DNA of 39,288 bases from Lactobacillus sp. UCMA15818 (lineage in GTDB: Bacteria > Bacillota > Bacilli > Lactobacillales > Lactobacillaceae): the NCBI RefSeq assembly GCF_030400225.1, contig NZ_VJYB01000015.1, positions 1 through 39,288 of the forward strand, in the 5' to 3' direction. Every line of letters starts with the position of its first letter. The first letter of the stretch is position 1. The notes under the pieces were generated by a model, which did no database searches, was not told where the DNA came from, and saw only the letters and a list, made by a program, of their open reading frames with translations. Made by a program: the position numbers and the translations under genes. Positions 5,654 through 35,972 of the stretch are shown here, one piece after another.

Positions 5654-6829
5654 ATGATTTTAACTGAGAAAGAACTAATTGGAATAAGACGTGAATTACA
5701 TAGAATTCCTGAAATTGGAATGGAAGAATTTGAAACACACAAAAAATTAATTTCGATTATTAAAAGTATGAACGATGGCTGGCTGGATTATAAGACTTGG
5801 AAGACAGCAATTATCGTCCATTTAAAAGGAATTGATAACACGCATACAATTGGTTATCGTACGGATATTGATGGTTTGCCGGTAACTGAAGAGACAGGCT
5901 TACTCTTTTCCTCAATAAACGAGGGGAGGATGCATGCCTGTGGACACGATATCCATATGACTGTTGCTCTTGGAATATTGAGCTTTTTTGCAGAAAAACA
6001 GCCCAATATAAATATGACATTTATTTTTCAACCTGCAGAAGAAAATGCTAGTGGCGGCAAGCAATTGTATGAAAGCGGTGCACTGGATCAGTGGATGCCT
6101 GATGAAATCTATGCTTTCCATGATAATCCTGAATTAAAAGCAGGGGTAATCGGATGTCGACAAGGAACTTTATTTGCAGGAACATGTGAGATTCATGCAA
6201 CTTTTACGGGTAAAAGTGGGCATGCAGCTTTTCCTCATAACGCAAATGATATGGTGGTAGCTGGATCTTATTTTGTAACGCAGATTCAGTCAATTGTAAG
6301 TCGAAATGTTGATCCAATTCAATCAGGTGTTGTAACACTGGGTCATTTTAATGCAGGTACAACTGGAAATGTGATTGCTGGGAAAGCTCAAATAGATGGA
6401 ACAATCAGAGCACTAACACAAGAAATGAATCTATTGATTCAAAAGAGGGTTAGAAGAATTGCTAAGTCGATTGCAGAATCATTCGAGTGTGAAGTTGAAC
6501 TTGATTTGCATCAAGGCGGATATTATCCAGTAGAGAATAACTATAAAACAACAAAAGAGTTCATTAGTTATATGTCTAACAATAAAAATGTTGTGTTTGA
6601 AAAAACAGAACCTGCAATGACCGGAGAAGATTTTGGCTTTTTATTGTCAAAGATACCTGGAACGATGTTTTGGTTAGGGGTAGACAGTCCGTATTCACTA
6701 CATTCAGAGCATCTTGCACCAAAAGAGGAAGCAATTAAAAAGGGTGTGGATGCAATGACTGGTTATTTACAAGACAGAATGGAAACAATTAGTTCAAAAG
6801 GGGCAGGATCAAAGCATACTGAATCATAA
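5654..6829 (+). CDS. dapL: N-acetyldiaminopimelate deacetylase
   Basis: An M20 metallopeptidase-family enzyme of 391 residues that removes acetate from N-acetyl-LL-diaminopimelate, completing the branch opened by dapH. Metal-binding features are visible: HACGHDIHM at about 94-102, the PAEE pair at about 127-130, and HSEHLAP near the C-terminus. The ATG at 5654 is nine bases after AAAAGGA; the ATG at 5645 overlaps that site and is less likely. Context (dapH just upstream) is what separates this from other M20 amidohydrolases, such as the paralog at 32197. Its terminator begins inside the last codons of the gene. Confidence 0.9.
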   Translation: MILTEKELIGIRRELHRIPEIGMEEFETHKKLISIIKSMNDGWLDYKTWKTAIIVHLKGIDNTHTIGYRTDIDGLPVTEETGLLFSSINEGRMHACGHDIHMTVALGILSFFAEKQPNINMTFIFQPAEENASGGKQLYESGALDQWMPDEIYAFHDNPELKAGVIGCRQGTLFAGTCEIHATFTGKSGHAAFPHNANDMVVAGSYFVTQIQSIVSRNVDPIQSGVVTLGHFNAGTTGNVIAGKAQIDGTIRALTQEMNLLIQKRVRRIAKSIAESFECEVELDLHQGGYYPVENNYKTTKEFISYMSNNKNVVFEKTEPAMTGEDFGFLLSKIPGTMFWLGVDSPYSLHSEHLAPKEEAIKKGVDAMTGYLQDRMETISSKGAGSKHTES

Positions 6830-25157: not shown

Positions 25158-25784
25158 ATGGTAAAAGACAGAGGAAGAAGTTTTATAGATGGTCTTATTC
25201 TTTTTTTGTTTATTTTATCCTTGAGCATTACAATCACAATTAATTTTACGCCACTTTACCATTTTTTTGTTCTTAAGGATAACCTTGGCAGTCTAGTTGG
25301 CTTGAACAGCTCGGAGCTAATGAAAGAATATTATCGGTTACTTTCTTTTTTGAACTATCCTTGGATTAACAAGTTAAATTTATCTTTACCGTCTTCGACT
25401 AATGGGATGCATCATTTCTTTGATGTCAAACATTTATTTCTTGTTAATTATTGTGTGTTGGTATTAACTAGTGTGCTTGCGTATTTGGTTATAAAAAAAA
25501 TGAAGATTGAAAAAAGTCAATGGAAATTAATTGTTCCTGCGAAGGTTATGATGTTAGTTTTATTTGTTTTAGTCATGATAATGGCACTCAATTTTAATAA
25601 ATTCTTTATTGGATTTCACGAAGTTTTATTTAGAAATAGCGACTGGCTTTTTGATCCAAAACTAGATCCGATAATTAATACGTTACCAGATACTTTCTTT
25701 ATGGCATGTTTTGTCTTCTTTTTTTGTCTGATAGAGTTTTTTTTGTGGATTGGTGTTATCTATGGAAAGAAAAGCTTACGCTGA
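25158..25784 (+). CDS. TIGR01906-family integral membrane protein
   Basis: A 208-residue protein with four likely membrane segments (FIDGLILFLFILSLSITITI near the N-terminus, then about residues 88-110, 125-145 and 178-202) and a large loop with LDPIINTLP. It matches the uncharacterised TIGR01906 family, which follows YutD and the HAD gene in lactobacilli. ATG at 25158 starts right after the HAD stop. No function can be proposed. Confidence 0.8.
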   Translation: MVKDRGRSFIDGLILFLFILSLSITITINFTPLYHFFVLKDNLGSLVGLNSSELMKEYYRLLSFLNYPWINKLNLSLPSSTNGMHHFFDVKHLFLVNYCVLVLTSVLAYLVIKKMKIEKSQWKLIVPAKVMMLVLFVLVMIMALNFNKFFIGFHEVLFRNSDWLFDPKLDPIINTLPDTFFMACFVFFFCLIEFFLWIGVIYGKKSLR

Positions 25785-25854: not shown

Positions 25855-25883
25855 TTGACAAAGAAGACTGGTGAGATTAGAAT
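25855..25883 (+). promoter_or_regulatory. Strong sigma-A promoter of the methionine T-box operon
   Basis: Consensus TTGACA (25855-25860), spacer of 17, TAGAAT (25878-25883). Confidence 0.8.
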
Positions 25884-25889
25884 TCACTG

Positions 25890-26178
25890 TAATGAATTAA
25901 TACTTTTTAATTATTATATCTTTTGAAAAGAAGAGTAGCTATATTGAATTGAATACAGAGAACTTATGTTAGCTGAGAGTAAGTATCGATTAGGATAGTG
26001 AAGATGAACTTGGATATAGAAGTATTCGGTGAAAGCCGCGTACTCGGTAGGAACCGTTATTTTTCCGGATATCGTTTTTATAAGTATCGTTGAGACACGG
26101 TTTTAGTGTGAAAAAAGGGTGGTACCGCAATTGATTTTGCCCCTTGTTTGTTGATGACAATAGACAGGGGTTTTTTTT
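25890..26178 (+). promoter_or_regulatory. T-box riboswitch 1 (tRNA-Met responsive by specifier)
   Basis: Stem I is closed by CTATAT (25939-25944) and ATATAG (26014-26019), with AUG at 26004-26006 in a GAAGAUGAAC context at the specifier position. The T-box bulge UGGUACC lies at 26120-26126; AAGGG and GCAA on one side pair with UUGC and CCCUU on the other to form the antiterminator. The competing terminator is CCCC (26140-26143) to GGGG (26167-26170) followed by eight T. UGGU pairs with an acceptor end whose discriminator base is A, as in tRNA-Met and unlike tRNA-Cys (U). Confidence 0.88.
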
Positions 26179-26299
26179 GTACAATAATATAATAAGATTG
26201 AGTGGTGGGCATAGAAAAAATAGATTGATGAATAGATGTGAAATGAGTTTTTCTTATAATTTAATATAAAAATTAGCAAAAGATGAGTAATTCCTTTGA

Positions 26300-26555
26300 A
26301 AAATTTACAGAGAGGCTATATTGATGAGAGTAGTCATTGAAGCAAACGAATGAAGATGGTCTGTTGAATCTAATTCCAGTGTGAGCCCTTTTGGGGTAAG
26401 CAGTGGACGGGAATGCCTGTTATAGCATCACAGTTATGAATAGCATCATTTTTATGACTTGGTAAGGATCTTCAAAGAAATTTGATTATTAAATAACGAG
26501 TGGTAACGCGAAAGAATCGCCTCGTAGTCGAAAATGACTATGGGGTGTTTTTTTT
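26300..26555 (+). promoter_or_regulatory. T-box riboswitch 2, in series with the first
   Basis: Stem I base ACAGA (26307-26311) with TCTGT (26360-26364); specifier AUG at 26356-26358 again in a GAAGAUG context. Antiterminator: ACGAG plus GCG pair with CGC plus CUCGU (26496-26525), leaving the 7-base bulge UGGUAAC, one base different from the canonical UGGNACC. Terminator: CGCCTCGTAGTC (26518-26529) pairs over 12 bp with GACTATGGGGTG (26536-26547), followed by eight T. A TATAAT at 26255-26260 could be a second promoter but lacks a good -35. The gene-free stretch 25785-26610 is filled by these two leaders. Confidence 0.82.
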
Positions 26556-26610
26556 ATAGAATCAAGGTTTATTTCAATAAAAAATAATAGGGAAAGTGTG
26601 GAGATATATA

Positions 26611-27765
26611 ATGTCTGAATTTGATACAAAATTAGTTCATGGAAAAATACAAAATGATAATAATACTGGAGCAGTAAATGTTCCCATTTATAATTCGTCA
26701 ACTTATATTTTTCCAAAGGTTGATGCTAAAATTCGTTGGGATTATGCACGTTCGGGGAATCCGACCCGAAGTTATTTAGAAGATCAAGTTGCAGAATTAG
26801 AAGGGGGATATCAGGGATTCGCATTTTCATCAGGGTTAGCAGCAATTCATTCAGTATTCTCAATTTTTTCACCAGGAGATCATATCATAATTGGAGATAC
26901 TGTTTATGGTGGAACTTTTAGATTGATAAACCAAATATTCAAAAAATGGAACTTAGAGTTCACAGCAGTTAATACACAGGACGTAGCAATTGTAAGAAAT
27001 GCTATTAAAGAAAACACCAAGGCTATTTATTTTGAAACGTTCTCCAATCCTTTACTGCGTGTGACGAGTGTCAAGGAGACTGCAAAGATTGCAAAAGAAA
27101 ATAATTTATTAACGATTGTCGATAATACTTTTTTAACTCCATATCTGCAAAAGCCACTCAAATTAGGCGCAGACATAGTTATCCATTCTGCAACAAAATA
27201 TTTAGGTGGACATTCTGATGTGATTGCCGGTGTTGTAGTTGCTAAAAATAAAGAATTGGCTGAACAAATCTATTTCAATCAAAATGGAATTGGTGCGGTT
27301 TTATCTCCAGAGTCTTCTAACCTAATTAGAAGAGGGGTTCAGACATTAGCAGTTAGAATGGACAGGCATCTTAGCAATACTACAAAAATTGTAGAGTTTT
27401 TACAAACTCGTGAAGAAATCAAACAGATATATTTTCCGGGTTTATCAGGAACAAAGGATTACGAAATTGCTAGTCAAGAGGTTAATGGCTGCGGTGGACT
27501 TGTTTCTTTTGAGCTACAAGAAGGTCTTGATGCAATCAAATTTGTTGAAAGCCTAAAACTGATTCAGCTTGCGGTCAGCTTAGGGGCAGTTGAAAGCTTA
27601 ATAGAATTACCATATAAAATGACTCATGCAGAACTTTCAAAAGAACAACAAGAAGAGATTGGAATAACCTCGCAGTTAGTTAGATTATCGGTTGGAATTG
27701 AATCACCAAATGATTTAATTACGGATATTCAACAAGGACTTGATTTATTACATTATCACTGTTGA
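26611..27765 (+). CDS. Cys/Met-metabolism PLP enzyme (cystathionine lyase or gamma-synthase type)
   Basis: A 384-residue fold-type I PLP enzyme of the transsulfuration family: YARSGNPTRSYLE (phosphate-binding Tyr/Arg block, about 45-57), SSGLAAIHS (about 73-81), VDNTFLTPYLQ (cofactor Asp 171) and the Schiff-base lysine K196 in SATKYLGGHSD. It could act as cystathionine beta- or gamma-lyase or cystathionine gamma-synthase; sequence inspection does not decide. The double Met T-box just upstream argues for methionine synthesis. ATG at 26611 follows GTGGAGA. It is the first gene of the operon. Confidence 0.88.
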   Translation: MSEFDTKLVHGKIQNDNNTGAVNVPIYNSSTYIFPKVDAKIRWDYARSGNPTRSYLEDQVAELEGGYQGFAFSSGLAAIHSVFSIFSPGDHIIIGDTVYGGTFRLINQIFKKWNLEFTAVNTQDVAIVRNAIKENTKAIYFETFSNPLLRVTSVKETAKIAKENNLLTIVDNTFLTPYLQKPLKLGADIVIHSATKYLGGHSDVIAGVVVAKNKELAEQIYFNQNGIGAVLSPESSNLIRRGVQTLAVRMDRHLSNTTKIVEFLQTREEIKQIYFPGLSGTKDYEIASQEVNGCGGLVSFELQEGLDAIKFVESLKLIQLAVSLGAVESLIELPYKMTHAELSKEQQEEIGITSQLVRLSVGIESPNDLITDIQQGLDLLHYHC

Positions 27766-27799
27766 AGTGCGATTTTACATGTGAGAAAGTGGGTTTTTT

Positions 27800-28783
27800 A
27801 TGGGAAATAGTAAACAGGCAATTCTTAATAGAAAATATTGGAAGAGGTGGTCGCTCAACTGGAACGTACTCAGTATTTTAGCTGTTGTTGTTGCATTGGT
27901 CGAAAATCTGTTAGTTACTTCAAGTGAAAGTGTAGATAATGGACCCTATCGAATATTTCTGTTAGTTTTTATGTTTTATCTTTTGTTTGTATATTTAGTA
28001 GGCTCTTTTTTTAATCTAAGAGTGAAGTTTTATAGTGGACATTTTGCGCAGCTAAATCTTTCTTTGGGAATTTTACTATGTATTCAAGATTTATTGACAG
28101 AGAAGTTTGGAACTTTAGCTTTACCGTACTTTGTCAGTTTTGCGCAAATTTTAGAACAAATCAGATACGATGCAGTACTGTTGTTGGAATCAATGATATC
28201 GTCGCTGATTTTATGGCTTATTAGTTTTGTAATAGGGACATTGATTGGAGTTGTTCTAGGAATATTACTAGGAAGGTATCGCCAATTCAATTATTGGTCA
28301 TTCCCTTATTTGAAAGTAATTGGCATAATTCCTGCAGCAGCTTGGATGCCATTGACTATGGTAGTATTTCCAAATAGTTTTTTAGCAGAAGTTTTTTTAA
28401 TTGTCTTATCAGTTTGGTTTCCTGTAGCTTTTATGACTATTGGAGGCGTACAAAGTATTTTGCCGACATATTTTGAAGCAGCATATACCCTTGGATTCAA
28501 TGAACACAAAATTATTCAGAAGGTTGTAATTCCAGGTGCACTGCCCAACATTTTTACTGGTATTTTTACGTCTCTAGGATTGTCTTTTACGATGCTAGTA
28601 ATCTCGGAAATGATTGGGGCAAAAGTTGGATTAGGATGGTACATCAACTGGGCAAAGAGTACCGGAAATTACAGTCAATTGTATGCTGCAATCGTAATCA
28701 TGGCACTACTTTTTTCAATTATCTTTGCACTGATTAACAAAATTCAAGAGAAAGCACTTCGTTGGCGGAGAACGGCAAGTTAG
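27800..28783 (+). CDS. ABC importer permease, SsuC/TauC-like, with N-terminal extension
   Basis: A 327-residue membrane protein. The C-terminal about 220 residues are a normal BPD-type permease with the cytoplasmic EAA loop EAAYTLGFNEHKIIQKVVIPG, as in sulfonate, taurine and related importers. The first about 100 residues add two or three extra hydrophobic segments (for example YRIFLLVFMFYLLFVYLVG) not usual in 250-270 residue SsuC proteins. ATG at 27800 has only a weak ribosome site (GAAAGTGGG). With the following two genes it makes a complete importer; substrate inferred to be a methionine-related sulfur compound. Confidence 0.85.
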   Translation: MGNSKQAILNRKYWKRWSLNWNVLSILAVVVALVENLLVTSSESVDNGPYRIFLLVFMFYLLFVYLVGSFFNLRVKFYSGHFAQLNLSLGILLCIQDLLTEKFGTLALPYFVSFAQILEQIRYDAVLLLESMISSLILWLISFVIGTLIGVVLGILLGRYRQFNYWSFPYLKVIGIIPAAAWMPLTMVVFPNSFLAEVFLIVLSVWFPVAFMTIGGVQSILPTYFEAAYTLGFNEHKIIQKVVIPGALPNIFTGIFTSLGLSFTMLVISEMIGAKVGLGWYINWAKSTGNYSQLYAAIVIMALLFSIIFALINKIQEKALRWRRTAS

Positions 28784-28793
28784 GGGGACGGTT

Positions 28794-29540
28794 ATGGCTT
28801 TTCTAAAAGTAAAGAATGTTACTCGAGAGATTTTTAATAATAACGGTCAGTATTTGAAAATTATTGATGATATTAATTTTTCTGTTGTAGATGGAGAATT
28901 CTTATCATTAATCGGTCCTTCAGGTTGTGGCAAGACAACCTTGTTACGCGTTATTTCTGGACTTGATAATCCTGAAAAAGGTGAAGTGACACTTGCAGGA
29001 GAAAAAATTGTTAAACCATCAGTTTCAAGAGGATATGTCTTTCAGCATGGAAGCTTGTATCCATGGGAAACGATTAGGCAAAATATAAGTTCTGGGATAC
29101 AGGTTGTGCAGGGTAAGAACTTTAATCAGAAGTTGGTGGATTACTTCATAGAAGTTATGGGGTTACAAGGATTTGAAGATGCATATCCAAATCAAGTGTC
29201 AGGTGGGATGGCACAAAGGGCTGCACTGGCAAGATCATTAGTTTTAAATCCACAGCTGTTGCTCTTGGATGAACCAATGGGGGCACTGGATGCATTTACG
29301 CGAGTCGATGTCCAAAATATTATTTACAAAATTTGGCAGGAAAAGAAAACAACGATGATTTTAGTCACACACGATATTGATGAGGCTATTTATTTAAGTC
29401 AAAGGATTTTAGTGATGACTCCACATCCGGGTCGAGTCAAAGAAATCGTTAAGAATGATTTACCATTTCCGCGAAAACGCGATAGTTCTGAATTCTTGGA
29501 TACAAGAAAAAAGCTACAACAAATACTAAATTTTAAATAA
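28794..29540 (+). CDS. ABC importer ATP-binding protein, SsuB/TauB-like
   Basis: A 248-residue ATPase: Walker A GPSGCGKTT (about 42-50), Q-loop in VFQHGSLYPWETI, signature VSGGMAQRAALARSL, Walker B LLLLDEPMGALD, and switch His in LVTHDIDEAI. This wording is typical of the nitrate/sulfonate/taurine family (the DEPMGALDAFTR block). ATG at 28794 follows GGGGGACGG, 10 bases after the permease gene. It energises the permease at 27800. Confidence 0.93.
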   Translation: MAFLKVKNVTREIFNNNGQYLKIIDDINFSVVDGEFLSLIGPSGCGKTTLLRVISGLDNPEKGEVTLAGEKIVKPSVSRGYVFQHGSLYPWETIRQNISSGIQVVQGKNFNQKLVDYFIEVMGLQGFEDAYPNQVSGGMAQRAALARSLVLNPQLLLLDEPMGALDAFTRVDVQNIIYKIWQEKKTTMILVTHDIDEAIYLSQRILVMTPHPGRVKEIVKNDLPFPRKRDSSEFLDTRKKLQQILNFK

Positions 29541-29557
29541 GGTGAGGAGATAATCGG

Positions 29558-30601
29558 ATGAGTAATCAAAAAGGATTTATGGGGAATGCATTAAAGTTCG
29601 CAGCAATATTTCTAGCAACAATTGGGATTTTTTTTGTTTTCAATAATCATTTAATTTATGCTAGCTCAGGCTATAAATACGGTTCAATAACTATCCCAGC
29701 AAAGAATGGAACGATTTGCGGGGCTCCCAATTATATTGCATATGAAAAAGGATTTTTCAAAAAAAATGGGCTTAAAGCGGATTTAGTTGCTAAACCAACA
29801 AACATTGGAGATCTTGAAGCTGGGTTCTCAAGTGGTAAATATGATGCTCTAAATGGTGATTTTCAGTATTTGCCAGCTATTCAAAATGGAGCACAAATTC
29901 TTGCTGCTGGTGGATTACACCAGGGATGTATCGAAGTCTTGGTTCCTAAGAATTCGAGCATACATAGTGTCAAGGATTTAAAAGGCAAGACAATTGGTAC
30001 ACCTGGCGAAGGTTCTACTGGTCAATATGTTGCAACAATCGCTTTGCAGCATGCGGGGATTGATGTTAAAAGTGGGGTGACTTGGAAAACCTTTGATTAT
30101 GATTTGTTAACTAAGGCAGCGGAAAAAGGCGAAGTGGATGCAATCGCCACCGTGGATCCTTATGCTTATCAAGCACAAAAACAAAATCATTTCAGGGTAA
30201 TTGTTAATAATAATAACAGTTCTAACAGTACTAAAATGGCAAAGATGGGTATGAAGAAGAGTGGTTCTTGTTGCTATTTGTATTTGCCACAAAAACTGGT
30301 TAAGGAAAATCCAGCAAAAGCCGCAGCAATTGTGAAATCATATAAAGAAGCGACAGCATGGATTGATAAACATCCTTCAGAAACTGCCAGCATTCTTCTA
30401 GACAAAAAATATGTAGCAGAGACAAAATTTGTTAACCATAAAAATGTTACGAGTTTGATTAAGAGCTATCATTTCTCATTGAAGGGTAAAGCTGGTAAAG
30501 CAGACTTGAAGTATTACGCAGAACAATTGAAAAAGGCTGGATTTTTAAAGAGTAATACCAATGTGAACAAATTGATAAAGAATGCATACTATAAAAATTA
30601 A
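29558..30601 (+). CDS. ABC importer substrate-binding protein (NMT1/SsuA-like)
   Basis: A 347-residue binding protein. Residues about 10-33 are hydrophobic (ALKFAAIFLATIGIFFVFN) and followed by LIYASSG, a possible signal-peptidase I site, but there is no lipobox cysteine, unusual for a Gram-positive binding protein, so it may stay anchored by the N-terminus. The mature part has the SsuA/NMT1 pattern: ICGAPNYIAYEKGFFKKNGL, LKGKTIGTPGEGSTGQYVA and DAIATVDPYAYQAQ. Several cysteines occur (one in TICGAP, a pair in GSCCYLYLP). ATG at 29558 follows GGTGAGGAG. Ligand unknown; methionine-related by context. Confidence 0.85.
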   Translation: MSNQKGFMGNALKFAAIFLATIGIFFVFNNHLIYASSGYKYGSITIPAKNGTICGAPNYIAYEKGFFKKNGLKADLVAKPTNIGDLEAGFSSGKYDALNGDFQYLPAIQNGAQILAAGGLHQGCIEVLVPKNSSIHSVKDLKGKTIGTPGEGSTGQYVATIALQHAGIDVKSGVTWKTFDYDLLTKAAEKGEVDAIATVDPYAYQAQKQNHFRVIVNNNNSSNSTKMAKMGMKKSGSCCYLYLPQKLVKENPAKAAAIVKSYKEATAWIDKHPSETASILLDKKYVAETKFVNHKNVTSLIKSYHFSLKGKAGKADLKYYAEQLKKAGFLKSNTNVNKLIKNAYYKN

Positions 30602-30887
30602 AGATAGATATGAATGAATTTAAAAAGGGTAAAAATTACTAGTTCTTATCAGTATTTATGTGACAAGTTAGCTGATTTTGAAGAATAACTTTCGGAATAT
30701 GCCGGGATGAATTAAAACGCTAAAAGTCGGTAAAAGCAGTTAGATTACTTTACCAATCGAAAAAAGGAAAATGAAATGCTTAAGAAAAATAAACAAAAAT
30801 GAATTGCAGGTAATGCTGTAATATTGCAACAACTAAGAAAAATTTGTAAGAAACTAATGTTTGAGTTTGATAAAGGAGCTGAGTTTA
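30602..30887 (+). other. Unexplained 286-base spacer inside the methionine operon
   Basis: The rest of the operon is tightly packed, so this gap stands out. It holds a hairpin (GGTAAA about 30730 with TTTACC about 30750), a weak possible promoter TTGCAA (30824-30829), 17 bases, TAAGAA (30847-30852), and a frame that reads like protein with scattered TAA/TGA stops (possible decayed ORF, or chance). No T-box or terminator is seen. Confidence 0.4.
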
Positions 30888-32189
30888 ATGAGTAATGAAT
30901 TCGATACAAAAAAGATTCATAGTGGATATGAACCGAAGAATTTTGATTATTCCGCAACTGTTCCGATTTTTCAAAGCGTTGCTTTTGACTTAGGGAACAC
31001 TGGACGTGCAGATCAAATAGTTCGCGGCGAATTACCAGGAGCTTTTATGTACTCAAGAGTAGCCAATCCAACTGTTGATATCTTTGAAAAAAGAATTAAT
31101 GCTCTTGATGGCGGTGTAGGGGCAGTTGCGGTCGCTTCTGGTATGGCAGCTATCACCTATGCGATTTTAAATGTCGCCGAAGGAGGAGGAAGAATTATTG
31201 CTCCGTTAGATATCTATGGAGCTTCATTGGATGAGTTTAGGACGCTTTTACCTAAGTATAATATTAATTTTGATTTTGTTGAAAATATTAATGATTTCGA
31301 TAAGATTCAAGAACTTATAAGGCCTGATACGAAGGCTATCTATGTTGAGAGTGTTTCTAATCCGATTACAAATATTGCTGATATATCACAGCTAGCTAAA
31401 TTAGCACATAAAAATAAAATTCCATTGATTGTTGATAATACTTTTCCTACTCCTTATCTGTTCAATCCGATTAAGTTTGGAGCTGATATTATTGTCTATT
31501 CTTCAACTAAAGGTATTAGCGGGCATGGTAATGTTGTGTCTGGAATAATTGTGGATGGAGGGAAGTTCGAATGGACTAAGGAGAAATTTCCCCAATTTTT
31601 TGAACCTGAATTAACCTTAGATAAAGAGGGAAGAGAAGATAATAGTTTTGTAGGAGTATTTGGCAAAAGGGCTTTTAGTGCACATCTGCGGACAAAATAT
31701 TTGAGACTGATGGGAGCGGTATTAAATCCGTTTGCAGCTTATCTTGGATTGCTAGGGCTTGAAACATTGTCAGAAAGAGTTAACAAAGAAGTTTTGACTG
31801 CCTTAAAGATTGCTCGATATTTAGAAAAAAATGAACACATCGAAAAAATTTTTCATAGTGGACTCTTAAATACACCGCAAAGAGACTTGGTTGAGAAATA
31901 TTATCCCAATGGAATAGGAACCGTATTCTCATTTAAATTAAGGGGAACGGTGGAAAATATCAAAAAGCTATTAAATGGTGTTAAGCTTTTTACTTACTTA
32001 CCCAATGTTGGTGACAACCGCTCACTCATTGTTAATCCGAGTGGAACAACTCATCGTGAGGTACCCGAAGATGAAAGAAAAAGGCAAAATATTTCAGATA
32101 ACCTTATTAGGCTTTCTATTGGGTTAGAAGATGCGTCTGATTTAATTCGAGATTTAGAACAAGCGATTAAACAAGCTTTTAAGGAGTGA
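30888..32189 (+). CDS. metY: O-acetylhomoserine sulfhydrylase-like enzyme (MetY type)
   Basis: A 433-residue PLP enzyme of the transsulfuration family, about 50 residues longer than its paralog at 26611. The extra length lies after the Schiff-base lysine (K208 in SSTKGISGHG) and includes GGKFEWTKEKFPQFFEP, an insertion typical of O-acetylhomoserine/O-acetylserine sulfhydrylases. Such enzymes combine O-acetylhomoserine with sulfide or methanethiol to give homocysteine or methionine directly. Further blocks: YSRVANPTVDIFE, VASGMAAITYA and VDNTFPTPYL. ATG at 30888 follows AAAGGAGC. Specificity (acetyl vs succinyl, sulfide vs methanethiol) is not settled by sequence. Confidence 0.87.
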   Translation: MSNEFDTKKIHSGYEPKNFDYSATVPIFQSVAFDLGNTGRADQIVRGELPGAFMYSRVANPTVDIFEKRINALDGGVGAVAVASGMAAITYAILNVAEGGGRIIAPLDIYGASLDEFRTLLPKYNINFDFVENINDFDKIQELIRPDTKAIYVESVSNPITNIADISQLAKLAHKNKIPLIVDNTFPTPYLFNPIKFGADIIVYSSTKGISGHGNVVSGIIVDGGKFEWTKEKFPQFFEPELTLDKEGREDNSFVGVFGKRAFSAHLRTKYLRLMGAVLNPFAAYLGLLGLETLSERVNKEVLTALKIARYLEKNEHIEKIFHSGLLNTPQRDLVEKYYPNGIGTVFSFKLRGTVENIKKLLNGVKLFTYLPNVGDNRSLIVNPSGTTHREVPEDERKRQNISDNLIRLSIGLEDASDLIRDLEQAIKQAFKE

Positions 32190-32196
32190 GAGTAAA

Positions 32197-33357
32197 TTGA
32201 CTAAAAAAAAGATTGTAATTGATTTAAAAGAAATAATCGAGTTGCGTCATTATTTTCATCAACATCCTGAGTTGTCCAATAATGAATTCAATACTACAAA
32301 GAAGATTAAAGCAGTTTTGACTGCTTGGGAAGTTTCAATTTTACCAACTGGTTTAGATACTGGTATTTTGGCAGAAATCAAGGGCAAACAAACGGGTTCA
32401 ATTATTGCTTTGAGGGCAGATATTGATGCTTTGCCTGTTCAAGAAGAAACAAGCCTAGCTTTTAAATCACTCAATTCAGGAATAATGCACGCTTGTGGTC
32501 ATGATTTGCATTTAACTAGTCTACTAGGAGCAATAAAGTACTTTAAAGATAATCGAGATCAGATTAAGGGGACAATCAGATTTTTGTTTCAACCAGCTGA
32601 AGAAGCTGGCGGCGGAGCAGAACAAGTTATTAAAAAAAATGTGCTTAAAGATGTGAAAGCTATTCTAGGTTTTCATAATAATCCTAATTTACCAGTTGGT
32701 ACCATTGCAGTGCAATCGGGTCCGATGATGGCAGGCTGCTATAAATTCGAGATTACAATAAAGGGTCAAGGATCACACGGAGCAAAGCCAGAAAAGGGGC
32801 ATGATCCAATAATTGCCGTAACTGAAATAGTTGGTGCTTTGCAGACAATTGTAAGTAGAAATATTAATCCGCAAGATGCAGTAGTTATAAGCGTCACTAA
32901 TATTAACGCAGGAAATGTTTGGAATGTTATACCTAGTGAGGCTTATCTTCAAGGAACCGTGCGCCTTTTTGACGAAAAAAATGCCAAATTGGTGAGACAG
33001 AGACTTTTTGAACTAACAGAAGGAATTGCTAAAGCATTTGGACAGTCGGTTGAAATAGGTTGGAGCGAGCGGGCACTTCCAATAAATAACGATTCAAATT
33101 TGACACAGGCAGTAATCAATAATTTATCAAGTACAGTTCATAAGCCTCTTCTTTCAATGGCAGGAGAAGATTTTGCTACCTATCAAAAAAAAATTCCTGG
33201 TGTCTTCGCTTTTGTTGGTTCTAACGGTGCACCAGATGTGGCAGACTGGCATGAACCAAATTTTGTTGGCCTCGATGAAACTTTGACAACGGGGGTTGAT
33301 TATTTTATTGAAGGTGCAAAAGGATTGTTAGCATATCTGAATGAGGAGATGAAATAA
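32197..33357 (+). CDS. M20-family amidohydrolase (N-acyl amino acid deacylase)
   Basis: A 386-residue metallo-amidohydrolase: LRADIDALPVQEE, HACGHDLHL (about 98-106), PAEEAGGGAEQV and a dimerisation domain starting SHGAKPEKGHDP. It is a paralog of dapL at 5654 but without dap context. Here, between a MetY-like enzyme and an aminotransferase under Met control, it likely releases an amino acid from an N-acyl form, as M20 enzymes do for N-acetyl-S-alkylcysteines in Bacillus sulfur salvage operons (analogy). TTG at 32197 follows AAGGAGTGAG. Hippurate or peptide-like substrates are alternatives. Confidence 0.87.
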   Translation: MTKKKIVIDLKEIIELRHYFHQHPELSNNEFNTTKKIKAVLTAWEVSILPTGLDTGILAEIKGKQTGSIIALRADIDALPVQEETSLAFKSLNSGIMHACGHDLHLTSLLGAIKYFKDNRDQIKGTIRFLFQPAEEAGGGAEQVIKKNVLKDVKAILGFHNNPNLPVGTIAVQSGPMMAGCYKFEITIKGQGSHGAKPEKGHDPIIAVTEIVGALQTIVSRNINPQDAVVISVTNINAGNVWNVIPSEAYLQGTVRLFDEKNAKLVRQRLFELTEGIAKAFGQSVEIGWSERALPINNDSNLTQAVINNLSSTVHKPLLSMAGEDFATYQKKIPGVFAFVGSNGAPDVADWHEPNFVGLDETLTTGVDYFIEGAKGLLAYLNEEMK

Positions 33358-33359
33358 AG

Positions 33360-34538
33360 TTGAAAGATGAACTCATTTCTTTACTGAATAAGAATTTATT
33401 GGAAGTTGAACCATCATTAATTAGAAAGTTTGATGAGGAAATTAGTGAGATACCTAATATAGTAAAACTAACATTGGGTGAACCTTATTTTAACACTCCC
33501 GACCATATCAAAATAGCAGGAATAAAAGCAATTATTGACAATCAGACACACTATGCTCCTAATCGTGGAATAGCTGAACTTAGAGGAGCGATAAGTAATT
33601 ATTTAAAGCGTCATTACGGAGTATCATATGATCCGCAGGAACAAATTATAGTCACTAATGGTGCCAGTGAAGCAATCAGCACGGTCATGAACTCTTTTTC
33701 GGGACAAGGTGATGTAGTTTTGTGTCCTTCACCAGCCTTTGGACTGTATCGGAATTTAGCAAAAATAAACGGAGCTAAGTATATAGAAATTGATACGGAA
33801 AACGATAAATATAAATTAACTCCAGAAAAGTTAAAGGAATACTTAAATAAATATCAAACATCCGTTAAGATGCTAATTTTCAACTATCCCAACAATCCAA
33901 CAGGAGTTAGTTATTCTGAAATTGAAATAAAAAAACTTGCAGAGGTCTTGAGAGAATACTTGGTAGTTGTTTTGAGTGACGAAATTTACAGTGAACTTAT
34001 TTATAAGGAAAAACATGTATCAATTGCATCTTATTTACCAGAAAAGACACTGCTAGTTAATGGAGTATCTAAGTCGTATGCCATGACTGGTTGGCGTGTG
34101 GGATATCTATGCGGACCAAAGAAACTAATTAGAAATTTGGCAAAACTTCATCAGGCTAATGTTGCGACGATTGGAACTATAAATATGATTGCTGCTGCAG
34201 AAGGATTAATTAATGGTGACGAAGATATAAAAAAGATGCGTGCAGAATATGAAAAAAAGAGAGACTTTGTTTGCAAACGGCTAAGGGACATTGGTTATTC
34301 TTTTATACCGGCTGATGGAGCATTCTACATCTATGTCAAATTACCACATGATTTTCAGGGCTCTAGCATTGATTATGCAAGAATACTTGCTCAAAGGGCA
34401 CATGTCGCGGTTATTCCTGGAGCAGCATTTGCAATCCAAGATCAAAAATATTTTCGCATTAGTTACGCTGTCTCAGATGATAAATTGGCTAGTGCGCTGA
34501 AACGTTTAGAAAAATTTGTAAAGGGCAGGCGAAGATAA
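33360..34538 (+). CDS. Class I/II PLP aminotransferase
   Basis: A 392-residue fold-type I aminotransferase: TLGEPYFNTPDHI near the N-terminus, YAPNRGIAELRGAI (about 65-78), NYPNNPTG (175-182), Schiff-base lysine K238 in NGVSKSYAMTGWRVGY and the substrate-carboxylate Arg in YFRISYA. It belongs to the broad PatA/AspC/aromatic group; it would interconvert an amino acid and its 2-oxo acid. With a 2-hydroxyacid dehydrogenase next to it, under Met control, 4-methylthio-2-oxobutanoate/methionine is a plausible pair (inference). TTG at 33360 follows GAGGAGATGAAATAAAG, two bases after the M20 gene. Confidence 0.88.
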   Translation: MKDELISLLNKNLLEVEPSLIRKFDEEISEIPNIVKLTLGEPYFNTPDHIKIAGIKAIIDNQTHYAPNRGIAELRGAISNYLKRHYGVSYDPQEQIIVTNGASEAISTVMNSFSGQGDVVLCPSPAFGLYRNLAKINGAKYIEIDTENDKYKLTPEKLKEYLNKYQTSVKMLIFNYPNNPTGVSYSEIEIKKLAEVLREYLVVVLSDEIYSELIYKEKHVSIASYLPEKTLLVNGVSKSYAMTGWRVGYLCGPKKLIRNLAKLHQANVATIGTINMIAAAEGLINGDEDIKKMRAEYEKKRDFVCKRLRDIGYSFIPADGAFYIYVKLPHDFQGSSIDYARILAQRAHVAVIPGAAFAIQDQKYFRISYAVSDDKLASALKRLEKFVKGRRR

Positions 34539-34539
34539 A

Positions 34540-35550
34540 TTGACAAAAATAATTGCTTATCATGTTCGACAAGATGAAGACCCATTTATTGCACAATGGA
34601 GCAAGAAAAATGAAATTGAGGTTAAAAGCGTTCCATTCGAACTTCACCCTGATACTGTGGAATATGCAAAAGGGTATGATGGAATTATTTTTAAACAACG
34701 TAGTAAATTAGATGAAGATGGTTTGATTTATCAAGTCTTAAAGAGTTATGGAATTCGTCAGTTATCTTGTCGTTCGGCGGGGATAGATACAGTTAATCTT
34801 AGTGCGGCTAAATTAAATGGTATCAAAGTGACGAATGTTCCTTCATATTCTCCGCATGCGGTTGCAGAATTAGTTTTGATGCAGGCAATGCAACTGATTA
34901 GACATTATCCAGAATTCAAAGCACGCTTGGATAATAACGATTATGTTGTTGATGGATTGCGTTCACGTGAACTTTCGGAATATGTCATTGGGATTATCGG
35001 AGTTGGCAGAATTGGGAGAACAGTTGCTCAGATATTTCACAGTTTAGGGGCAAAGGTTCTTGGGAATGATTTGATAAGAAATCCAGAGTTAGAGCAAGCT
35101 GGGACTTTGAAGTATGTTGAAAAAGATGAGATTTATCGAAAAGCAGATATTGTGACCTCACATGTTTATTTGAGTGAGCAAAATATTCACTTAATCGGTC
35201 AAAATGCTTTTTCTAAGATGAAATCAACCGCTTTTTTAATAAATGATTCTCGAGGATCGATTGTGAACACTGCTGATTTGTTAGTTGCTTTGGAGAAAAA
35301 ACAGATTGCTGGAGCAGCATTAGATGTAGTTGAAGAAGAAACTAAGATTTTTAATTTGAAATTTGATAGGCAAACTCCAGTGGTCAATTACAATCTGCTT
35401 AAAGAATTGCCGAATGTGATTTTGACACCACATATTGCTTTTTACACAGATATTGCAGTTGAACGAATGGTAAAACAAGCTCTAGATGATGCATTAAACA
35501 TTATTCAAGGAAAGCACAGTGTGCATGAAATAAGTTTCAAGGGAGAATAA
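34540..35550 (+). CDS. D-2-hydroxyacid dehydrogenase
   Basis: A 336-residue NAD-dependent enzyme of the D-lactate/D-hydroxyisocaproate dehydrogenase group: nucleotide-binding GVGRIG (154-159) with an acidic residue after strand 2 (Asp177), catalytic Arg238 in NDSRGSIVNT, Glu in LDVVEEE (about 265-267) and His298 in LTPHIAFYT. It interconverts a 2-oxo acid and the D-2-hydroxy acid. TTG at 34540 comes one base after the aminotransferase stop, so the two are coupled. A methionine hydroxy-analogue or 2-oxo-analogue is a reasonable substrate guess; D-LDH activity in central metabolism is less likely given the operon. Confidence 0.9.
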   Translation: MTKIIAYHVRQDEDPFIAQWSKKNEIEVKSVPFELHPDTVEYAKGYDGIIFKQRSKLDEDGLIYQVLKSYGIRQLSCRSAGIDTVNLSAAKLNGIKVTNVPSYSPHAVAELVLMQAMQLIRHYPEFKARLDNNDYVVDGLRSRELSEYVIGIIGVGRIGRTVAQIFHSLGAKVLGNDLIRNPELEQAGTLKYVEKDEIYRKADIVTSHVYLSEQNIHLIGQNAFSKMKSTAFLINDSRGSIVNTADLLVALEKKQIAGAALDVVEEETKIFNLKFDRQTPVVNYNLLKELPNVILTPHIAFYTDIAVERMVKQALDDALNIIQGKHSVHEISFKGE

Positions 35551-35552
35551 AG

Positions 35553-35972
35553 ATGGTTAAATTCAGAAGAATGACGATTAATGATTATGAACAGGCATAT
35601 ACTTTATGGGAGAGAACACCAGGAATGAATCTTCAATCCTTGGACAATACACGAGCTGGAATTATGCGTGTAATTGACTGCAATTCTAACCTGTGTTTTG
35701 TTGCTGAAGACCAAGAAATAGTAATTGCAACAATCTTAGGAGCAACTGATGGTAGAAAGGGTTATTTTTACCACGTTGCAGTTGCTAAAAATTTTCAACA
35801 TCAGCAGATTGGAAAAAAATTGATTTCAAAGGTTCTAGAAGAATTTAAGTTGGAAAATATTGAAAAAGTTGGTTTGTTTACGGTTATGGATAATAGTGAA
35901 GGACAGAAATTCTGGGAGCATCTAGGATTTAAGGAGCGGCCTGATATAAAATATTTGGATTTAGATTTGTAA
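35553..35972 (+). CDS. GNAT-family N-acetyltransferase
   Basis: A 139-residue acetyl-CoA-dependent acetyltransferase: the core strand-helix reads YFYHVAVAKNFQHQQIGKKL, with QQIGK as a variant of the acetyl-CoA pyrophosphate loop, and FWEHLGFKERPDIKYL near the C-terminus. ATG at 35553 follows GGGAGAA, two bases after the dehydrogenase gene, so it is the last gene of the methionine operon. Pairing with an M20 deacylase in the same operon recalls the acetylation/deacetylation pairs of Bacillus S-alkylcysteine salvage. Substrate unknown. Confidence 0.83.
   Translation: MVKFRRMTINDYEQAYTLWERTPGMNLQSLDNTRAGIMRVIDCNSNLCFVAEDQEIVIATILGATDGRKGYFYHVAVAKNFQHQQIGKKLISKVLEEFKLENIEKVGLFTVMDNSEGQKFWEHLGFKERPDIKYLDLDL

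Follow-up and report, generated by a model that had tools for sequence, protein, structure and literature searches.

A methionine T-box operon of Lactobacillus sp. UCMA15818 with a putative role in scavenging derivatives of sulfur amino acids

Overall architecture of the operon

The window analysed here, a stretch of 39,288 nucleotides from Lactobacillus sp. UCMA15818 (assembly GCF_030400225.1, contig NZ_VJYB01000015.1, positions 1 to 39,288 of the forward strand), contains an operon of nine same-strand genes (26611–35972, +) encoding an ATP-binding cassette (ABC) importer, two pyridoxal phosphate (PLP) enzymes, a deacylase, an aminotransferase, a hydroxyacid dehydrogenase and an acetyltransferase. 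The source genome comprises 2,576,500 bases in 46 contigs, and the gene families were confirmed by Pfam and NCBIfam scans. The arrangement of nine co-directional genes behind two T-boxes with AUG specifiers, as given in the original prediction, is borne out by the gene coordinates, covariance matches, specifiers and terminators. The intergenic gaps measure 34, 10, 17, 286, 7, 2, 1 and 2 bases, in agreement with the predicted spacing of mostly 1–35 bases; the lone exception, the 286-base gap between g4 and g5, proved informative, as it holds the remnant of an Ldh_2 gene. From gene content and regulation, we read the operon as one that would scavenge hydroxy-, oxo- or N-acyl derivatives of sulfur amino acids during methionine starvation, with a probability of about one half; the readings weighed below overlap, and their probabilities need not add up to one.

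Features of the operon (window coordinates, strand):
25855–25883, +, promoter-like site TTGACA-17-TAGAAT; 11 of 12 consensus positions, best of 38
25914–26147, +, T-box leader 1, specifier AUG at 26004–26006; RF00230 85.3 bits, E 6.2e-19, full length
26141–26170, +, terminator of T-box 1; 13 pairs, then eight T
26266–26527, +, T-box leader 2, specifier AUG at 26356–26358; RF00230 65.6 bits, E 7.2e-14, full length
26518–26547, +, terminator of T-box 2; 13 pairs, then eight T
26611–27765, +, g1, cystathionine gamma-synthase/lyase-type PLP enzyme; PF01053 477.6 bits
27800–28783, +, g2, ABC permease (BPD_transp_1); PF00528, best NCBIfam match SaoP 103.6 bits (cut-off 295)
28794–29540, +, g3, ABC ATPase; PF00005, best NCBIfam match SaoA 246.9 bits (cut-off 360)
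29558–30601, +, g4, NMT1/THI5-family substrate-binding protein with C54, C124, C238, C239 and H121; PF09084 77.5 bits, alignments
30681–30868, +, decayed C-terminal Ldh_2 remnant (L-2-hydroxyacid dehydrogenase type); matches to the Ldh_2 of the L. uvarum operon
30888–32189, +, g5, diverged O-acetylhomoserine sulfhydrylase-type PLP enzyme; PF01053 374.6 bits, TIGR01326 447.9 bits (cut-off 495.1), own clade
32197–33357, +, g6, M20 amidohydrolase/deacylase, YxeP/ScmP-like; TIGR01891 364.4 bits (cut-off 153.75), structure 1ysj
33360–34538, +, g7, class I/II aminotransferase; PF00155 225.5 bits, NCBIfam PRK07309 462.4 bits (cut-off 576)
34540–35550, +, g8, D-2-hydroxyacid dehydrogenase with Lys52-Gln53-Arg54; PF02826 and PF00389
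35553–35972, +, g9, GNAT acetyltransferase; PF00583 52.1 bits

Tandem T-boxes place the operon under methionine control

Binding of uncharged tRNA-Met to T-box leaders releases transcription. Both leaders of the operon combine a full-length fold, an antiterminator/terminator and an AUG specifier, as in the methionine T-box class, and induction by methionine starvation is predicted on this basis. As both score under the Rfam gathering score of 93, a default Rfam scan of the window reported neither. The specifier context is GAAG-AUG in both leaders, and the same register yields the expected codon in six leaders whose genes were named by eye (HisZ-like CAC, pheS TTC, tyrS TAC, alaS GCT, argS CGT and, for hisS of hisS-aspS, GAC). 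Exceptions to this register are leuS and valS, in which it is shifted by 1–2 bases, and ileS, serS and glyQ, which are among the leaders without GAA before the codon. The genome contains 33 RF00230 matches at E ≤0.001, 12 of them over the cut-off. Read by eye, 11 of the remaining 31 T-boxes carry an AUG specifier, which brings the total with the operon leaders to 13 of 33; two leaders on contig C46 that are readable as AUG or UGG, one of them before a TrpD-like gene, were excluded from the AUG count (C-numbers denote contigs of the source genome, G-numbers the genomes compared and L-numbers loci). Promoter-like sites of the kind found upstream of the leaders are not enriched as a class (38 versus 39.3 in shuffles). 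Of the 12 L. paracasei genes tabulated as lying behind methionine T-boxes, eight showed significantly higher expression when the medium was deficient in methionine than when it was deficient in cysteine (PMC6004538, in excerpt).

Other AUG T-boxes of the genome precede further genes of sulfur and hydroxyacid metabolism. One stands before a MetA-family gene followed by two Cys_Met_Meta_PP enzymes, and another before a YxjH-like gene (named by eye) and the canonical sulfhydrylase (TIGR01326 608.7 bits, cut-off 495.1). Furthermore, a GlcD-type 2-hydroxyacid dehydrogenase linked to flavin adenine dinucleotide (L116:444–1925; 349.6 bits, cut-off 567.9) and a carbon-nitrogen hydrolase followed by an aminotransferase (L111:1–1976) each lie behind an AUG T-box; we take the latter pair to resemble the omega-amidase and aminotransferase of methionine salvage. 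Because the canonical methionine enzymes sit elsewhere behind these other AUG T-boxes, g1 and g5 are extra copies, and the operon is not needed to supply the canonical activities. An AUC (isoleucine) T-box was also noted before a 2-dehydropantoate-reductase-like gene (named by eye), both at L049:17236–17474 and at L122 on contig C2 of the source genome.

Four cysteines and a histidine are conserved in the binding protein

The binding protein g4 (347 residues), which is 95% identical to its Liquorilactobacillus mali counterpart, contains exactly the four cysteines at positions 54, 124, 238 and 239; from this identity, Liquorilactobacillus is the most likely genus of the host. Among 39 aligned sequences, which span several phyla, 32 have the complete set of four, the alignment comprising the window copy and 38 sequences from 37 of the 56 loci found in a scan of named genomes (the 19 omitted loci are split, partial, near-duplicate or weaker matches). 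The seven exceptions are all at most 31% identical. His121 accompanies the cysteines in all 32 sequences and also occurs in two of the exceptions, L086 and L093. The four-cysteine family was found in Bacillota, Verrucomicrobiota, Pseudomonadota and Spirochaetota, and three plasmid-encoded relatives, one from Treponema and two from Paraburkholderia, likewise carry the four cysteines and the histidine. Close plasmid-borne copies were sought and rejected, the nine plasmid records at E ≤1e-30 all sharing <32% identity. The family has no known function in the libraries scanned. As exported Bacillota proteins seldom conserve cysteines, a ligand or metal site is likely at these positions. One idea, drawn from the alignment to THI5 and from general background, is that the four cysteines may line a single ligand cleft; in this alignment, CC238–239 lies opposite CCCFC, the iron-binding motif of the THI5/NMT1 pyrimidine synthase (PMC10512395, in excerpt). 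The two proteins share a sequence family, whereas g4 is part of an importer, bears a signal or anchor segment and is not a suicide enzyme. The lipobox-like cysteine seen in many other Lactobacillaceae copies (LAGCG type) is absent from the source genome and its close relatives (29558–29670 in the window), whose binding proteins seem to be anchored by an N-terminal helix.

The importer had been called SsuABC-like, a label that holds only at the superfamily level. Although all three subunits belong to the same superfamilies as the SsuABC/TauABC sulfonate importers, the best NCBIfam match of g4, SsuA_fam (TIGR01728), reaches 108.4 bits against a cut-off of 163.5, the protein has four cysteines, and the operon has no desulfonating enzyme family. 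The second-best match is SaoX of the Sec-assisted organometallic (SAO) importer SaoX/SaoA/SaoP (66.4 bits, cut-off 300). The operon importer shares with this system an NMT1-type binding protein, the CC pair, His121 and the nearest named permease and ATPase families (PMC13188914, in excerpt), but all of its subunits fall under the Sao cut-offs, C124 is added, and the other Sao proteins are not among the nine genes. SAO membership was rejected on these scores, kinship being possible. L086 is a true SaoX (504.8 bits, cut-off 300). In a full-length alignment of 12 proteins, L086 and L093 contain the CC pair, have a cysteine offset from C54 by three residues on its N-terminal side and lack C124, and L079 and L082 have neither the four cysteines nor the histidine. 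By alignment, the four-cysteine family is distantly related to SaoX and has an additional cysteine at the site.

These likenesses would also fit an SAO-related carrier of a metal or organometal that is methionine-controlled for a reason other than sulfur scavenging. Its best permease and ATPase matches, the second-best match of g4, the features shared with L086 and L093, and the position of CC238–239 opposite an iron-binding motif all favour such a carrier, but the subunit scores, the absence of C124 from the SaoX-type rows, and the recurrence of methionine T-boxes and sulfur neighbours across several genera speak against it, and we consider it highly unlikely.

The sulfur neighbours extend beyond the Lactobacillaceae, so that in several phyla members of an importer family marked by conserved cysteines and a histidine are found close to genes of sulfur metabolism. 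The Treponema importer lies among genes for a cysteine synthase, a PLP enzyme and MalY, and that of Paraburkholderia sprentiae among rhodanese, cysteine dioxygenase, LLM flavin oxidoreductase and acyl-CoA dehydrogenase-like genes. In P. largidicola, the neighbourhood is limited to one acyl-CoA dehydrogenase-like gene plus additional binding proteins, among them one with an aliphatic-sulfonate annotation, and in an Afipia metagenome-assembled genome the neighbours are acyl-CoA dehydrogenase-like and luciferase-like genes. The Lactococcus importer adjoins a sulfhydrylase. By-eye inspection of the first residues of the open reading frames gave no clear sulfur genes at the Verrucomicrobia, Burkholderia, Zoogloeaceae and Clostridiaceae loci, save a metK-like gene in L065.

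Diverged enzymes accompany the importer

Both PLP enzymes of the operon are paralogues of enzymes encoded elsewhere in the genome. The protein g1 is 65% identical to one PLP enzyme of the genome's own metA cluster. By comparison, g5 is 55–65% identical to three operon sulfhydrylases of other genera and 38% identical to the genome's canonical sulfhydrylase, and it lies under the TIGR01326 cut-off that the canonical copy exceeds. The Lactococcus sulfhydrylase is 58% identical to this canonical copy. Residues K208, Y55, R57, Y110, D183, S205 and R408 are identical in 13 operon g5 copies and two canonical-type copies; presumably they comprise the PLP lysine and the core of the active site. Between the 13 operon copies and both canonical-type copies, 32 positions are invariant on each side yet different (one a gap), and one of these, Gly209 versus Phe, adjoins the PLP lysine. 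Sequence comparison thus indicates that g5 is a diverged sulfhydrylase paralogue forming its own clade.

The nearest solved relative of the M20 enzyme g6 is YxeP (1ysj, E 3.7e-101; next 2e-58). YxeP, now ScmP, is specific for N-acetylcysteine and has about 1% activity on N-acetylmethionine (PMC12757645, in excerpt), so that N-acetylmethionine, which the original prediction had put forward as a substrate of the M20 enzyme, is not the obvious one for g6. N-acetylcysteine-like and cystathionine-like derivatives would be no worse a fit to g6 and g1 than methionine derivatives, and we think that the answer given earlier was of the right kind with too narrow a list of substrates. Cystathionine derivatives are known as human urinary metabolites, and their suggestion as substrates is a guess. 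A second M20 amidohydrolase gene in the window (5657–6754), which at E 1e-10 is the sole further match in the genome, encodes a protein 34% identical to g6 that may be of the N-acetyl-diaminopimelate type.

The dehydrogenase g8 aligns best with D-lactate dehydrogenases. Its Lys52-Gln53-Arg54 is invariant in eight operon copies, and position 52 is Tyr in the D-lactate dehydrogenase 1j49, Gln in the best match 4xkj, and Lys in 2yq4 and 4prk. The nearest solved relatives of g9 are the uncharacterised PA4534 and then YpeA. A role of this GNAT as stand-in for a missing homoserine acyltransferase was rejected, as all 19 genomes tested possess MetA-family genes, the source genome having two.

Remnant and intact copies of an L-type dehydrogenase gene

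An Ldh_2 gene accompanies the operon at eight loci (L046, L047, L048, L049, L050, L052, L055 and L060) and, by gene order read by eye, lies between a binding protein and g5 in L046, L048, L049 and L050. The corresponding 286-base gap in the window contains two collinear matches (30681–30773 and 30761–30868) to residues 290–351 of the L. uvarum operon Ldh_2. Their pair score of 44.3 bits was reached by none of 300 first-order Markov randomised gaps (maximum 36.2), and the best single match (23.5 bits; randomised maximum 22.7) likewise by none of 300; six Ldh_2 proteins had been tried as queries and the best one was taken, a choice outside this control. Another of the six queries (L064) matched the gap more weakly and on the wrong strand (E 0.009). 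We take it that an Ldh_2 gene was lost from the window operon.

An intact Ldh_2 gene (PF02615 334.2 bits, cut-off 38.8) is located on another contig (C34) behind an AUG T-box. A close orthologue (at least 72% identity) is present in seven of 14 Liquorilactobacillus genomes searched, and a T-box with AUG (61.6–76.6 bits) precedes six of these seven, none having been found before the seventh (L145). In G003 and G009, where Ldh_2 lies inside the operon, no further Ldh_2 match was obtained at E 1e-30. Separately, G013 contains a second Ldh_2 copy (L150), 49% identical and with an internal stop, in front of which the motif scan alone placed an AUG T-box-like core. The hydroxy/oxo-acid part of the original prediction gains from the operon Ldh_2 of relatives, the genome's own Ldh_2 behind an AUG T-box, and the T-box-preceded GlcD and hydrolase-aminotransferase genes, and loses slightly from Lys52 of g8.

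The best NCBIfam match of the L046 Ldh_2 is L-sulfolactate dehydrogenase; since its score of 241.6 bits is under the cut-off of 500, only the Ldh_2 family assignment is safe. Together with SsuA_fam as the top match of g4 and with Lys52 of g8, which would suit an anionic side chain, this match could point to a sulfonate or sulfolactate importer with a degradation set. But both matches are under cut-off, and in the operon Pfam and NCBIfam identified neither a sulfonate monooxygenase nor a sulfo-lyase family; this pathway was rejected as extremely unlikely.

Conservation of the gene set in Lactobacillaceae

A search for the same gene set in other lactobacilli, suggested by the original prediction, revealed that it recurs together with T-boxes and is not unique to the window. 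A binding-protein match at E ≤1e-15 is present in 49 of 397 family genomes (source genome included), 20 of which hold a copy of at least 56% identity (counted by hand; one only in pieces). The scan of named genomes placed 16 of its 56 loci in 15 Lactobacillaceae species, at 63–95% identity. Within at most 10 kb per side and at identity thresholds of 35% for Ldh_2 and 50–55% for the other genes, the binding protein is accompanied by permease and ATPase at 15 of these 16 loci, by g1 at 13, by g5 at 13 and by g6 at 12. Less frequent companions are Ldh_2 (8), g9 (the same 8), g7 (6) and g8 (6), and the counts of the last genes are minima because contig ends cut some loci (e.g. L045). The core of most loci is therefore the importer with g1, g5 and g6, and the dehydrogenases, the aminotransferase and the GNAT are accessory. 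Three of the 16 loci, in L. plantarum (L053) and Secundilactobacillus (L054 and L056), carry the importer without companion enzymes.

Our own motif scan gave candidate AUG T-boxes at most of the 16 loci. In six of them (L047, L048, L049, L053, L059 and L060), cmscan detected 14 T-boxes, eight of which precede genes of the set and are all AUG (L047 16179, L048 4873, L049 4393 and 5886, L053 9600, L059 12824, L060 8326 and 16393); the remaining six precede other genes, five with AUG and one with AUC. Among more distant importers, AUG T-boxes lie directly before the permease in Leuconostoc rapi (L090) and Lacticaseibacillus porcinae (L064). When eight distant loci were scanned with Rfam at its gathering thresholds, no riboswitch or T-box was detected, only one transfer-messenger RNA and one tRNA.

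Several copies are broken, some possibly through assembly errors. The binding protein is in pieces in G011 (L019) and L058, both binding proteins are broken in L060, and the second is broken in L. sucicola (L047). The permease is broken in L049, the sulfhydrylase is in pieces in L. mali (L045), and both sulfhydrylase and aminotransferase are in pieces in L055.

The importer-only loci bear on another model, in which the importer carries a small thiol or sulfane sulfur (methanethiol, sulfide or polysulfide), held by the four cysteines, that g5 would add to activated homoserine, the dehydrogenases and the aminotransferase being passengers. In addition to these loci, the four conserved cysteines, the canonical-type sulfhydrylase adjoining the importer in Lactococcus nasutitermitis, the metF-like and metE-like genes (named by eye) flanking it in Leuconostoc rapi, and the rhodanese gene near it in Paraburkholderia are in line with such a cargo. 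However, small thiols and sulfide usually cross membranes unaided, and the M20 enzyme, the GNAT and the separate T-box-controlled Ldh_2 would be left unexplained. We regard this model as rather unlikely, and give the same small chance to its corollary that g5 would yield methionine or homocysteine directly.

The co-occurrence of Ldh_2 and GNAT in the same eight loci, and the closeness of g6 to YxeP/ScmP, are what an oxygen-free counterpart of Bacillus S-alkylcysteine salvage (acetylation, C–S cleavage, deacetylation) would predict, a proposal that overlaps the scavenging of amino acid derivatives. The GNAT would acetylate an amino acid bearing an S-modification, the thiol would be released by a dehydrogenase or a PLP enzyme, and the M20 enzyme would deacetylate the product, a sequence of steps that we hold to be distinctly unlikely, like the counterpart as a whole. 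PLP enzymes of this family require a free amino group, no luciferase-type monooxygenase or S-(2-succino) lyase was found among the nine genes by Pfam and NCBIfam, and g9 is a GNAT by family and only putatively YxeL-like. The Bacillus loci combine acetyltransferase, monooxygenase and deacetylase genes (PMC12757645, PMC9706529, both in excerpt). The yxe/scm locus is defined by at least three of YxeK, YxeL, YxeMNO, YxeP and YxeQ (PMC9706529, in excerpt); of these, the operon has a YxeP-like enzyme, together with a GNAT of unassigned subtype, another importer family and no luciferase-type gene among the nine.

Proposed mechanism and weighing of the evidence

Scavenging of hydroxy-, oxo- or N-acyl derivatives would proceed as follows. 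Upon methionine shortage, uncharged tRNA-Met would bind the tandem T-boxes, whose AUG specifiers are observed, and release transcription. The ABC importer would capture a sulfur-bearing compound by means of g4, with its histidine and four cysteines. Judged by their families, g6 would strip an N-acyl group, g8 and its L-type partner Ldh_2 encoded elsewhere would convert 2-hydroxy acids to 2-oxo acids, and g7 would restore the amino group. The two PLP enzymes would then make or break a C–S bond and pass sulfur to homocysteine and methionine. We infer that the cargo is a sulfur compound and that the enzymes turn its hydroxy-, oxo- or N-acyl forms into methionine. The likeliest substrates would be hydroxy-, oxo- or N-acetyl forms of methionine, cysteine or cystathionine, and for any one of these three amino acids it is, at best, unlikely that its forms are the main substrate. 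The originally predicted import and conversion of an unusual methionine source thus stands in its regulatory logic, which is firm, and in a gene content that suits it; the SsuABC label and N-acetylmethionine are less well supported.

Several observations weigh against this reading. Lys52 of g8 hints mildly that the side chain would be polar and not a methylthio group, and this is a hint only, because 4xkj has Gln and 2yq4 and 4prk also have Lys at this position. The hydroxy/oxo branch is accessory, since g7 and g8 each occur in only six of the 16 loci (contig ends hide some), and the importer-only loci imply that the imported compound need not use a neighbouring g1 or g5–g9. Since His121 and the CC pair also occur in true SaoX, what the cysteines bind may be a metal or an organometal and not a compound of sulfur. 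With regard to regulation, cmscan detected no T-box before the first importer unit of L. sucicola (L047) and none just before the importer genes of Paucilactobacillus (L059), and none was found at the importer locus of Lactococcus nasutitermitis (L061). Broken copies in several relatives indicate that the operon is dispensable. Finally, four of the 12 methionine T-box genes of L. paracasei were without significant change (PMC6004538, in excerpt).

Comparison with known systems

The methionine T-box regulon of lactobacilli (for example yckJK-metC, metE-metF and metQNP of L. paracasei; PMC6004538, PMC2494555, both in excerpt) likewise places AUG T-boxes before ABC importers and transsulfuration-type PLP enzymes. 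The operon differs from it in its importer family and adds the M20 enzyme, aminotransferase, hydroxyacid dehydrogenase and GNAT, which are absent from the gene table in the excerpted text (PMC6004538). The Bacillus scm/yxe and ytn loci (PMC9706529, PMC12757645, both in excerpt) resemble the operon in joining an importer, an acetyltransferase and a YxeP-type deacetylase in one locus. By comparison, the operon has no monooxygenase or S-(2-succino) lyase, uses another importer family, and adds the methionine T-box, the hydroxyacid dehydrogenase and the aminotransferase. A bolder proposal is that a thiophilic four-cysteine importer and the lactobacillar enzyme set form an oxygen-independent route to methionine from overlooked sulfur compounds, which we see as quite unlikely. 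The set of that route, to which we give the same slight chance, would comprise the acetyltransferase, D- and L-type hydroxyacid dehydrogenases, the aminotransferase, the deacetylase and two neofunctionalised PLP enzymes, the dehydrogenases doing what Bacillus does with a monooxygenase.

No paper on this gene set appeared among the matches listed in our literature searches (best 8 of 8, 15 of 21 and 13 of 14). Wels 2008 describes five methionine T-box ABC systems in L. plantarum, the excerpted main text not naming this importer, and the L. plantarum importer may already figure in its additional file. Searches on 2-hydroxy-4-methylthiobutanoate gave feed and food-safety papers among the matches listed (best 8 of 138), and those on cystathionine derivatives nothing on point among the matches listed (best 8 of 54). 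The operon points to a possible methionine source for lactic acid bacteria once methionine runs out. Its T-boxes indicate the condition under which it would act, and the ligand can be sought directly in a tractable host through importer-only relatives such as that of L. plantarum. Annotation of families now named by default would, in turn, be extended by the PLP enzymes and Ldh_2.

Other observations

Directly 5' of the T-boxes lies a gene for a Lit/TIGR01906-family membrane protein (25158–25784), as is also the case in L. mali (L016/L045) and G011 (L019). In Leuconostoc rapi (L090:13498–18327), an adenylosuccinate-lyase-family gene adjoins a metE-like gene and lies alongside ABC genes of the polar amino acid type, an arrangement that recalls the S-(2-succino)cysteine lyase loci described in excerpted text (PMC9706529). 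A deltaproteobacterial metagenome-assembled genome (L082:1042–8556) contains, in a row and mostly named by eye, three lipoprotein-like genes, a nitrogenase-like subunit and a cysteine-synthase-like gene.

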